Source: Lacibacter cauensis (GTDB taxonomy: Bacteria > Bacteroidota > Bacteroidia > Chitinophagales > Chitinophagaceae). Taken from it: a stretch of 64,000 bases of DNA. The position numbers were made by a program, and so were the translations under genes. This document shows positions 14,217 through 17,179 of this stretch, one piece after another; the stretch's first letter is position 1; every line of letters starts with the position of its first letter. Below the pieces are notes generated by a model, which saw nothing but the letters and a program-made list of their open reading frames with translations, made no database searches and had not been told where the DNA came from. The stretch is taken from assembly GCF_007830055.1 (NCBI RefSeq), contig NZ_VLLE01000002.1, forward strand, positions 631,953 through 695,952, given 5' to 3'.

Positions 14217-15575
14217 ATGGACATTAAGAATAATATTCTTGAAACAATTGGAAACACCCCGCTTATTCGGTTAAATAAAATAACCCGCAATCTCCCCTGC
14301 ACTGTGGTTGCAAAGGTTGATTATTTCAATCCCGGCAATTCTATTAAGGACCGCATGGCGTTGAAGATGGTTGAGATTGCCGAACAGGAAGGTAAGTTAA
14401 AACCAGGCGGAACAATTATAGAAGGCACCAGTGGTAATACAGGTATGGGCTTGGCTTTGGCTGCTGTTGTGAAAGGCTACAAATGCATTTTTGTTACCAC
14501 AGATAAACAATCGAAAGAGAAAGCAGATATTCTTAAAGCTGTTGGTGCAGAAGTAATTGTTTGCCCAACCAATGTTGCACCCGAAGATCCCCGCAGTTAC
14601 TACAGTGTTGCAGCACGTTTGGCAAAGGAAATTCCGAACTCATATCACATGAATCAATACGACAACCTCGCAAACAGGTTGGCGCATTACGAAACAACGG
14701 GTCCGGAAATCTGGAAGCAAACCGATGGCAAAATTACACACTTGGTTTGTACAGCTGGTACCGGTGGAACCATTACCGGTACGGCGATGTACTTGAAAGA
14801 AAAAAATCCTGACATACAAATATGGGCCATTGATGTGTATGGCTCACTACTCACCAAGTATTTCCGAACTGGCGAAATTGATATGGGTGAAGTACATCCT
14901 TACATCAGCGAAGGTTTTGGCGAAGACTTTGTGCCGAAGAATTATGATATGAGTGTTATCGACCACTTCGAACAGGTAACGGATAAAGATGGTGCGGTGA
15001 TGGCCCGTCGTTTAGCAAAGGAAGAAGGATTGTTCTGCGGTTACAGTGCAGGCAGTTGTTTGCAAGGCCTCATACAGTTGAAAGACCGTTTGAAAAAAGA
15101 TGACCTGGTGGTTGCTATTCTGCACGACCATGGAAGCCGTTATGTAGGAAAGATATACAACGATCAATGGATGATGGAACGTGGTTTTCTGGATGTGAAA
15201 ACCTTTAAAGACATTGTTTCATCCCGTGCACATAATCGTTTAATCAGTGTAGATCCGTCTACTACTGTTGCTGAAACAGTAGAGTTGATGAAGAAGTATG
15301 ATATCGAGCATTTGCCTGTACTGAAGGATGGCGAACCTGTAGGTTCTATTTCGGAAAATGGATTGTTCAATAAAGTTTTTTCGAATCCTGAAATAAAGAA
15401 TGCAGCTGTAGCAGATGTAATAGAAACAACGTTGCCGATTGTTGCCTTTGATACGCCGATTGAACGTATCAGTTCGCTCATAACAAAAGAAAACGGTGCA
15501 GTCCTGAGTAAAGATGAGGCAGGCAACTACCATATTGTTACGAAATACGATATTATACAGTCGCTTACTAAATAG
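14217..15575 (+). CDS. cbs: Cystathionine beta-synthase (PLP enzyme with CBS pair)
   Basis: 452 aa from the ATG at 14217. The N-terminal 320 residues are a PLP-dependent cysteine-synthase-fold enzyme: the Schiff-base lysine is in NPGNSIKDRMA (about residue 44), EGTSGNTGMGLA follows, and CTAGTGGTITG binds phosphate. The C-terminal 120 residues are two CBS motifs (ISVDPSTTVAETVELMKK and LPIVAFDTPIERISSLI), which may sense adenosyl ligands. The reaction condenses serine, or activated serine, with homocysteine. A cysteine synthase role cannot be excluded by eye. Monocistronic with its own terminator. Confidence 0.88.
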   Translation: MDIKNNILETIGNTPLIRLNKITRNLPCTVVAKVDYFNPGNSIKDRMALKMVEIAEQEGKLKPGGTIIEGTSGNTGMGLALAAVVKGYKCIFVTTDKQSKEKADILKAVGAEVIVCPTNVAPEDPRSYYSVAARLAKEIPNSYHMNQYDNLANRLAHYETTGPEIWKQTDGKITHLVCTAGTGGTITGTAMYLKEKNPDIQIWAIDVYGSLLTKYFRTGEIDMGEVHPYISEGFGEDFVPKNYDMSVIDHFEQVTDKDGAVMARRLAKEEGLFCGYSAGSCLQGLIQLKDRLKKDDLVVAILHDHGSRYVGKIYNDQWMMERGFLDVKTFKDIVSSRAHNRLISVDPSTTVAETVELMKKYDIEHLPVLKDGEPVGSISENGLFNKVFSNPEIKNAAVADVIETTLPIVAFDTPIERISSLITKENGAVLSKDEAGNYHIVTKYDIIQSLTK

Positions 15576-15599
15576 CGAATACCGCAAAAACGAAACGTA

Positions 15600-15627
15600 A
15601 AGGCCGCTGTAAAGCGGCTTTTCTTTT
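15600..15627 (+). terminator. Intrinsic terminator after cbs
   Basis: Stem GCCGCT / AGCGGC, extended by A-T and G-T pairs, loop of 4 nt, followed by TTTTCTTTT. It lies 25 bp beyond the stop codon of the cystathionine beta-synthase gene. Confidence 0.85.
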
Positions 15628-15747
15628 GTAAGAGTGTTCATTTTATGCCTAAAACAGGCTTATTTACGTAAGTACACGCTCAGAATACACGTAGTTTTAC
15701 GTTTTGCGGGGTAAATACCGATGGTTCGAAAAAGAGAAATACTGCTC

Positions 15748-15778
15748 TTGTACAGCTTTAACAATGCTTATACTTTTG
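15748..15778 (+). promoter_or_regulatory. Strong Bacteroidota-type promoter of the candidate ncRNA
   Basis: TTG at 15748-15750 and TACTTTTG at 15771-15778 are separated by 20 bp, matching the primary sigma-factor consensus of the phylum (TTG near -33, TAnnTTTG near -7). The predicted start is about 15783-15786. No reading frame starts downstream for 560 bp, so this promoter serves something other than an adjacent protein gene. Confidence 0.65.
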
Positions 15779-15784
15779 TATCGG

Positions 15785-16198
15785 AAGTTGATTGAAACAC
15801 AATCAATGTTAACCAAGAGAAATAACTGAGAAAATATCCAAATCCATTAAAAAACCAAAGTAACAAATCCAATATCAGTTGACTTCCAATTTGAAAAACC
15901 AACAGTAAATCCAATAGCCCTGTAAGAAAACCAAAAGAACCGTTGAAAAATCCAAATGAAATCCTAACTGAAAGAACCACACCAAATCCTAAAGAAAGAC
16001 CAAACGCAAAATCCAAGCGTCCTAGGAAGAAAGACCAATCCTAGTCCTGAAAGACCAAAAAAAGCCAACCGGATCAGAACTAATCCCTCTGTTGCGGAAA
16101 CCAAGAGACCAAAAAAGGCTTTATCTAAAAGATCTGGATCCTAAGAAAACCAACGTAAAATCCAAACGTAATATCCTCTGAAATCCAGATCTTTTTTT
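15785..16198 (+). ncRNA. Candidate A-rich, CCAA-repeat non-coding RNA, about 414 nt
   Basis: Delimited by the promoter at 15748-15778 and a terminator ending at 16198. The 5' end forms a perfect 7-bp hairpin (TTGATTG 15788-15794, loop AAACA, CAATCAA 15800-15806) that would cap the RNA. The body is about half A, poor in G, and has 19 CCAA words, usually in contexts AAAAYCCAAA, AAAGACCAAA or AAAACCAAA; counting all CC pairs, neighbours are often 10-14 nt apart. Stops occur in all plus frames. An internal hairpin CTAGGA / TCCTAG (16022-16044) displays one ACCAA in its loop. The build suggests a largely single-stranded multi-site RNA; the partner and role are unknown. I recognise no Rfam family. 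Confidence 0.6.
16127..16198 (+). terminator. Terminator of the candidate ncRNA
   Basis: AAAAGATCTGGAT (16127-16139) pairs perfectly with ATCCAGATCTTTT (16183-16195), 13 bp, and the T run continues to 16198 (seven T in all, then CCTTTT). The 43-nt loop is unusually long and carries two more CCAA words. The stem is far too long to be chance. Confidence 0.7.
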
Positions 16199-16325
16199 CC
16201 TTTTATCTGTCATTAACCGAAGATATTTTGAAAAAAAGTTGGAACGTGTTTCCAAAATCCTTTGAATGAGCTACCTGATTTCGTACCAAGAAAACATAAA
16301 CACCAAAGGAACCGTTCAATTAATT
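16199..16325. other. Non-coding stretch between ncRNA and metal-receptor gene
   Basis: No gene seen. It keeps the A-rich, CCAA-bearing texture (tttccaaaatcc near 16250, taccaagaaaac near 16284, caccaaagg near 16301). A 6-bp hairpin TTGGAA / TTCCAA lies at 16239-16255; read on the minus strand it is followed by CTTTTTTT, but no minus-strand gene feeds it. Confidence 0.4.
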
Positions 16326-16380
16326 AATTTGCCTGTTTGAAAAATGAAATGAGTCAATTTCACGATCAAACAGGCAAATT
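16326..16380 (+). promoter_or_regulatory. 15-bp perfect inverted repeat enclosing the start codon
   Basis: AATTTGCCTGTTTGA (16326-16340) and TCAAACAGGCAAATT (16366-16380) are exact reverse complements, 25 nt apart; the loop holds the presumed ATG (16349). The second arm is followed by TGTTTTTATT. In RNA this could hide or present the start codon, or act as an intragenic attenuator; in DNA it could be an operator. The second arm encodes residues of the conserved protein start, so only the first arm is free to vary. Confidence 0.55.
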
Positions 16381-17179
16381 TGTTTTTATTCAATCCTCTC
16401 CTCCCCGCAGGGTTGTATCTCTTGTGCCATCACTCACCGAGTTGTTGTATTCGCTGCAGCTAGAAGATGAAGTTGTGGGGATTACCAAGTTTTGTGTTCA
16501 TCCCGAACATTGGTTCAGAACAAAACAACGGGTTGGTGGAACTAAAAATGCCGACATAGCAGCAATCCAGTCTTTACAGCCCGATCTTGTAATTGCCAGC
16601 AAAGAAGAAAATGTAAGAGAGCAGGTGGAAGCAATTGAAGCTTTTTGCCCGGTTTATTGTTCAGATATCAGCAACCTGGAAGATGCATACCAAGCAATAG
16701 CACAAATCGGCATGCTTACACATCGTTCAGCGAAGGCAGAAGAGCTGATTGAGCAGCTTAAAGCAAACTTTGCGCAATTAAAACCGGCAACAAAAAAAAT
16801 GCGCTGTGTCTATCTTATCTGGAACAATCCGTACATGAGTGTCGGTGGCGATACATTTATTAACGACATGCTTACCAAAGCCGGATTTGAAAATGTGTTG
16901 CAGGAAAAACTGCGTTACCCTGAAATCGATTTGGAGCAAATAGCATCGCTGGATGTTGAGGTTATACTTTTTTCATCGGAACCATTTCCATTTAAGCAAC
17001 AACATCTCGAAGCACTTGCAACAGCCTGGCAACAACAAATACCGCAGCAAAACCTACCCTTGTTACGAAATGTAGATGGCGAAATGTTTAGCTGGTATGG
17101 AAGCCGTTTGCTTTATGCAACAGAATATTTTAAAAAACTCCGGGAAAGCTTATTTTTAAGCGATGAACTTATTGTATAA
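16349..17179 (+). CDS. Helical backbone metal receptor / ABC substrate-binding-like protein
   Basis: 276 aa from ATG 16349; a TTG at 16337 is also in frame but lies in the first arm of the inverted repeat. The start QFHDQTGKFVFIQSSPPRRVVSLVPSLTELLYSLQ and GITKFCVHPEHW near residue 50 match the periplasmic-binding-protein-like (BtuF/FhuD fold) family, which binds cobalamin or metal chelates. There is no signal peptide, so unlike true BtuF it seems cytoplasmic; such leaderless forms are common in Bacteroidota and their ligand is unsettled. The 3' end overlaps the next gene by 17 bp. Confidence 0.8.
   Translation: MSQFHDQTGKFVFIQSSPPRRVVSLVPSLTELLYSLQLEDEVVGITKFCVHPEHWFRTKQRVGGTKNADIAAIQSLQPDLVIASKEENVREQVEAIEAFCPVYCSDISNLEDAYQAIAQIGMLTHRSAKAEELIEQLKANFAQLKPATKKMRCVYLIWNNPYMSVGGDTFINDMLTKAGFENVLQEKLRYPEIDLEQIASLDVEVILFSSEPFPFKQQHLEALATAWQQQIPQQNLPLLRNVDGEMFSWYGSRLLYATEYFKKLRESLFLSDELIV

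Follow-up and report, generated by a model that had tools for sequence, protein, structure and literature searches.

What occupies the intergenic region between a cbs-type gene and a periplasmic binding protein gene in Lacibacter cauensis? The window, that is, the whole 64,000-nt stretch of DNA analysed (GCF_007830055.1, NZ_VLLE01000002.1:631,953-695,952, forward strand), carries on its plus strand a gene with PALP (PF00291) and CBS (PF00571) domains in Pfam at 14220-15575 and a Peripla_BP_2 gene at 16337-17179, the latter listed with a TTG start and containing an in-frame ATG at 16349. A preliminary description had placed a candidate new non-coding RNA between the two, and since the cbs-type gene is followed by its own terminator-like site (15599-15622), this RNA is probably a separate transcription unit. 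Conservation in relatives, on which the preliminary description had made its proposal depend, was found: the promoter, the terminal stem and the CC-rich texture are seen again across 165 distinct copies. The stretch is almost certainly a real RNA gene and a member of a conserved family. On the sequence evidence, the RNA with its promoter and terminator had been recognised correctly; the long-range stem, two upstream dyads, multicopy family and link to response regulators described below are additions.

The extent of the family was determined by successive searches. Nucleotide-level searching detected similarity in 33 of 195 Chitinophagaceae genomes, counting the own genome; most of the matches were limited to part of the first 190 nt, and several were not at the cbs locus. 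The shared core was recognised from these loci together with loci downstream of cbs. Removal of five duplicates and two antisense artefacts reduced 68 modules to 61, and 43 of these formed alignment A1 (18 were left out as longer than 150 nt or near-duplicates), from which the covariance model R1 was built. R1 matched 89 of 244 Chitinophagaceae genomes, representing 38 of 101 genera, with 1-10 matches per genome. A class-wide draw of 395 genomes yielded four strong matches, all Chitinophagaceae, and two weak ones outside this family (E=0.0015 and 0.005), and an order-wide draw with model R2 gave matches in 33 of 298 genomes, again all Chitinophagaceae; because only the best first-pass candidates per genome were scored, absences in these searches are soft. 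Among 80 cbs loci from named records, 39 matched at E<=0.01 and 31 were used, as were 56 of the 66 matches of one locus search, with weak, cut and antisense matches excluded; in all, 176 matches collapsed to the 165 distinct core modules. One copy (L072) belongs to Terrimonas ferruginea. A second R2 match in the own genome (E=0.087) and weak R2 matches in three otherwise RNA-free genomes (E=0.001-0.06) were set aside. Weak model matches just downstream of cbs at four loci (L053, L055, L066 and L100; E=0.0002-0.007) may be remote family members. At four other loci, grouped with cbs (L011, L017, L128 and L178), three or four RNA copies stand in tandem, each with its own promoter. The search for plasmid carriage found no match. 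No Rfam 15 family matched the window above its gathering threshold, and when the window stretch and six loci were searched at lax settings, all scores were far below gathering; the open-access papers listed in literature searches contained no account of the family. Without an Rfam 15 match or a published description found, we regard the RNA family as new.

Both promoter elements named in the preliminary description lie where it had put them: the -33 element TTG at 15748-15750 and, 20 nt after it, the -7 element TACTTTTG at 15771-15778. The latter is of the Bacteroidota type TAnnTTTG and is perfect in 158 of the 164 copies that had enough upstream sequence to be counted (out of 165). A scan for the sigma-70 consensus, which does not cover other promoter types, gave 0 sites. 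The promoter extends beyond its first description, since conserved sequence starts further upstream, at 15696. There, conservation and a genome pattern search delineate a distal operator-like dyad, TTTAC-N10-GTAAA followed by TACC (15696-15719), and a proximal one, GAGAA-N4-TGCTC (15734-15747; family form GAGCA-N4-TGCTC), abuts the -33 region. At least 8 of the 10 bases of the proximal dyad are present in 108 of 164 copies and at none of the control positions, and in 141 of 164 copies its best TGCTCT match is positioned 28 nt upstream of the -10 start; for the distal dyad, about 38 bp further upstream, the same threshold of 8 bases is reached by 109 of 164 copies and by 2.2% of 820 control positions. 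Both keep near-fixed distances and occur in all three context groups (cbs, regulator, elsewhere), being rarest in the last (proximal 14/39, distal 19/39). Within the own genome, the window promoter is the sole match without mismatch to the proximal pattern GRGMAANNNTGCTCTTG and likewise to the distal pattern; with one mismatch allowed, the matches number 5 for the proximal pattern (3 for its reversed control) and 19 for the distal (13 for its reversed control). In 142 of 164 copies the distance from the -10 start to the beginning of GAAGTTG is 13 nt, and transcription is predicted to start at about the first base of the terminal stem, near 15783-15785 in the window.

The core of the RNA (about 95-150 nt in the family; 15783-15887 in the window, where R1 matches 15779-15897 with 76.1 bits) is defined by a long-range stem, formed between its 14 5'-terminal nt, GAAGUUGAUUGAUA, and a distant UAUCARUCAACUUC. 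In the window the 5' strand at 15783-15795 and the 3' strand TCAGTTGACTTCC at 15875-15887 form 13 bp in the minimum free energy (MFE) structure of the core, and at least 8 bp of this stem appear in the predicted MFE structure of 164 of the 165 cores. In A1, 96.3% of stem cells are paired, compared with 21-51% when the partner strand is slid; a second alignment, A2 (89 copies, some of which may be the same loci as A1 rows), gives 97.2%, a count that leans towards the stem since A2 was fitted to the model. A2 also contains 22 cells changed on both sides (shuffled mean 6.4). Six stem pairs are invariant and three have both-side changes, the number of such pairs not exceeding that in shuffles (182/500); one pair is UA in 67 copies and CG in 19, which may share descent and thus do not count as 19 independent events. 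In 160 of 165 cores at least five T occur among the 10 nt that begin with the last stem base. With a start at about the first base of the stem, the 5' end of the core would itself close the loop, and together with the T-rich stretch behind it the closing stem could also act as a terminator in most copies. The near-invariant AAAUCCARUAUCA lies 5' of the 3' stem strand and partly overlaps the stem.

A shorter structure at the same 5' end had been put forward initially, a 7-bp hairpin of TTGATTG (15788-15794) and CAATCAA (15800-15806) around the loop AAACA. This hairpin is present, but it does not hold as the main fold of the core: it excludes the full terminal stem, its 88.3% pairing in the family is not above shuffles, and cores with the long stem are on average about 10 kcal/mol more stable than those from which the 3' strand is missing. 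A stem at 15788-15806 also appears in a short fold, and it is plausible that the local hairpin, which can form before the 3' strand has been made, is an early folding intermediate.

Beyond the core, the window copy has lost the T-run (3 T of 10) and its transcript would continue through a CC-rich, G-poor extension of 239 nt (15888-16126) into a 3' domain (16127-16198), for an estimated length of about 416 nt. The perfect 13-bp stem of this domain, 16127-16139 with 16183-16195, and the seven T at 16192-16198 agree with the terminator described earlier; the stem encloses further CC words, and the whole forms a putative intrinsic terminator at the predicted RNA end. The stretch 15780-16200 has a folding z-score of -3.35, with 0 of 100 shuffles equally stable. 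Among nine aligned sequences (the window and eight relatives) the extension varies in length and retains its CC texture, and the stem words of the 3' domain are kept in 9 of 9, with one base differing in two. The small RNA would stand alone, with a length of about 416 nt in the window; elsewhere it would be the core (about 95-150 nt), which a similar extension follows in many copies. Relatives L039 and L041 keep the promoter, CC extension and 3' domain with no recognisable core stem. Another 3' domain, UCACCG ... CCUCCUGCUA ... UAGCRGGRGG ... CGGUGA, recurs downstream of the core in copies before the binding-protein gene (L018, L021, L026); L012 and L022 have its inner hairpin only.

The texture that first drew attention to the locus is genuine. 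The preliminary description had reported 19 CCAA words and roughly half-A sequence; 15780-16200 indeed contains 19 CCAA, a number that 0 of 1000 dinucleotide-preserving shuffles reach (mean 6.7), and is 45% A, 23% C and 13% G. Elsewhere in the window no 421-nt stretch on either strand has more than 12 (20-nt steps, starts >500 nt away). The CCAA excess is not due to chance. Across 83 copies (87 before removal of four antisense rows) the repeated word is CC flanked by A or U, namely UCCAA (223), UCCAG (81) and ACCAA (75); many such UCC/ACC words fill the A-rich, G-poor core loop, and the window RNA and its eight relatives, 370-480 nt long and 11-15% G, contain 26-37 CC runs each. In the extension, dinucleotide conservation is 0.71 for UC, 0.64 for CC, 0.61 for AA, 0.50 for AC and 0.47 for CA, so that CC is conserved little better than AA and better than AC or CA. 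Two properties ascribed to the words were not borne out. The suggested spacing of 10-14 nt was rejected as a fixed period, since nearest-CC gaps in the 83 copies are irregular, ranging from 3 to 66 nt and mostly 4-12. Enhanced single-strandedness was likewise rejected: the unpaired fraction of CC words is 0.782 compared with 0.780 in dinucleotide shuffles (100 of 165 copies), indicating that their openness follows from composition.

Genomic context connects the family to genes of signal transduction. Among 164 copies, 91 neighbour a cbs or binding-protein gene, 34 otherwise a NarL-family regulator and 39 neither; as the contexts combine loci from other searches with 80 regions hand-picked among the R1 match rows, these shares are not unbiased rates. 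In 31 distinct copies, from 25 genomes and 14 genera, the divergent neighbour is a NarL-family response regulator (gap 218-471 nt) of one of two related clades, one member of each having Response_reg and GerE domains in Pfam. The RNA and one regulator orthologue (E<=1e-80; query taken from beside an RNA copy) were both found in 86 of 244 genomes, the RNA alone in 3, the regulator alone in 11 and neither in 144 (Fisher P=3e-49, uncorrected for kinship). One of the three RNA-only genomes has a 76%-identical regulator fragment, and in 11 of the 97 regulator-bearing genomes no RNA was detectable, model R2 included; the co-occurrence may simply reflect membership of one clade. In the own genome, a cluster (L248:6394-11006) comprises two side-by-side NarL-type response regulators that are divergent from two small proteins for which Pfam gave no match, a HisKA_3 kinase and a third NarL-type regulator; searches with R1 and R2 found no RNA copy there. 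That RNA copies often stand beside genes of a signal-sensing system suggests an RNA-based control circuit.

The dedicated dyads, the existence of sibling copies, the linkage to a two-component cluster and the abundance of short words in G-poor RNA together point to protein titration on command. According to this model, a HisKA_3 kinase and NarL/LuxR-type response regulators would sense a signal, and a response regulator would bind one or both dyads and activate the RNA promoter. The RNA 5' end would then pair with its distant strand, stem and T-rich stretch being a possible terminator in most copies, and the closed loop would present many UCC/ACC words in A-rich, G-poor RNA, which would titrate an RNA-binding protein and free its mRNA targets. 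Of all this, the sequence itself shows the anatomy, the conservation, the copy number and the linkage, whereas the transcript ends, the sensing, the activation by a regulator and the titration are inferred. We consider the control of the promoter by the linked NarL-family regulators likely and give action by protein titration an even chance; for the whole reading, a two-component-controlled, protein-titrating small RNA, we estimate a probability of about 0.5. A sponge or scaffold for an RNA-binding protein, as proposed in the preliminary description, appears to be the best functional reading on the present sequence evidence. None of 22 RNA-bearing genomes yielded a match to CsrA (PF02599), whose profile matched 3 of 14 control genomes; a partner other than CsrA is therefore expected. 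RRM proteins are encoded in 22 of 22 RNA-bearing genomes (2-9 matches each), and in one genome with 10 RNA matches (G045) two copies lie near a cold-shock-domain gene and an RRM gene (L164 and L019); as a guess, an RRM or cold-shock protein would fit. To our knowledge, the global post-transcriptional regulators of Bacteroidota are poorly known, and an RNA family tied to a two-component cluster offers a defined entry point, with a taggable RNA, two dyads and two regulator clades.

The reading that competes best with titration, though we think it unlikely, is a base-pairing regulator whose single-stranded UCCAA/ACCAA words pair with UUGG-containing mRNAs, its paralogues sharing targets in the manner of FopS. 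A multicopy base-pairing sRNA family does exist in the phylum, according to the accessible part of its description (PMC11697453), and the near-invariant AAAUCCARUAUCA could serve as a seed; however, that stretch is partly taken up by the stem, and many short, degenerate words whose number and position vary do not resemble one or two conserved seeds. Less probable still is a Rho decoy or Rho-dependent element, a largely unstructured, untranslated, rut-like RNA with more C than G and a YC word every several nt that would bind the Rho hexamer. Rho prefers YC words. The C-rich composition (C 23%, G 13%) and UC and CC as the best-kept dinucleotides of the extension would fit this preference, but the CC spacing is irregular rather than periodic, a rut site has no need of a dedicated, regulator-linked promoter, and the terminator lying downstream in the window indicates that transcription gets through.

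Marginally weaker is a role in cis, as leader or attenuator of the gene downstream, in which the 5' strand would alternate between the local hairpin and the terminal stem with its T-run. The two structures are indeed mutually exclusive and 65 modules have the binding-protein gene (cluster c1) in their neighbourhood; yet 34 copies belong to the response-regulator group and 39 lie elsewhere, and for many the following gene is on the opposite strand. Pairing in the local hairpin is no higher than in shuffles, and in the window the core has lost its T-run and the listed gene start lies 139 nt beyond the end of a strong terminator. A short conserved stretch between this terminator and the gene (16246-16318), aligned among near relatives, is possibly the gene's own leader. 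Around the possible start codons, at 16326-16380, lies an inverted repeat, AATTTGCCTGTTTG / CAAACAGGCAAATT; L039 and L041 have a similar repeat followed by a terminator-like T-run. That the stretch is low-complexity intergenic DNA, or a coding gene that has decayed or runs antisense, is very improbable despite a minus-strand ORF of 82 codons (15768-16016), given promoter and stem conserved at fixed plus-strand places in 165 distinct copies, plus frames interrupted by stops as first described (longest stop-free runs 58, 51 and 49 codons in 15701-16400), and stop-free lengths that differ between frames and homologues and hence give no sign of a decayed gene.

The protein-titrating reading can finally be placed among known systems. 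FopS and GibS of Bacteroides thetaiotaomicron are likewise multicopy Bacteroidota small RNAs, and in the accessible part of their description they are tied to the RRM protein RbpB and FopS consists of a single-stranded 5' stretch and a terminator hairpin (PMC11697453); no terminal stem or CC-word array is described for FopS in that part, and the 5' end here lies in a stem. In Enterobacterales glmY stands beside qseE-qseG-qseF, whose regulator has sites in the glmY promoter (PMC8745638, accessible part); a small RNA gene next to two-component genes is common to both, with one operon and one RNA there and divergent, often several copies here. GacA is a response regulator of the NarL/FixJ kind. 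With RsmX/RsmY/RsmZ and CsrB, controlled by GacA/UvrY, our family shares sibling RNAs, a core-like size, repeated words, an upstream element and, if the proposed control holds, a response regulator; RsmY and RsmZ (118 and 133 nt) are described, in the accessible part of the source, as siblings with repeated short words and a conserved 18-bp upstream element (PMC4353343). In contrast, the word is UCC/ACC rather than GGA (G is 13% here), a terminal 5'-3' stem and two dyads of other sequence are present, regulator genes stand beside many RNA copies, and CsrA was found in none of the 22 genomes. There is no Rfam-level relation, a sub-threshold RsmY match (19.3 bits) lying outside the RNA copy at L031; if our reading is right, the systems work alike and are unrelated. 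We put forward tentatively, at somewhat less than even odds, that Chitinophagaceae independently evolved a counterpart of Gac/Rsm, in which a NarL-type cluster acts through one promoter type on sibling RNAs that titrate a CC-reading protein, without CsrA. The kind of circuit would then be one already known from gamma-proteobacteria, and its presence here would, if true, represent convergent evolution of a regulator-RNA-protein titration circuit.
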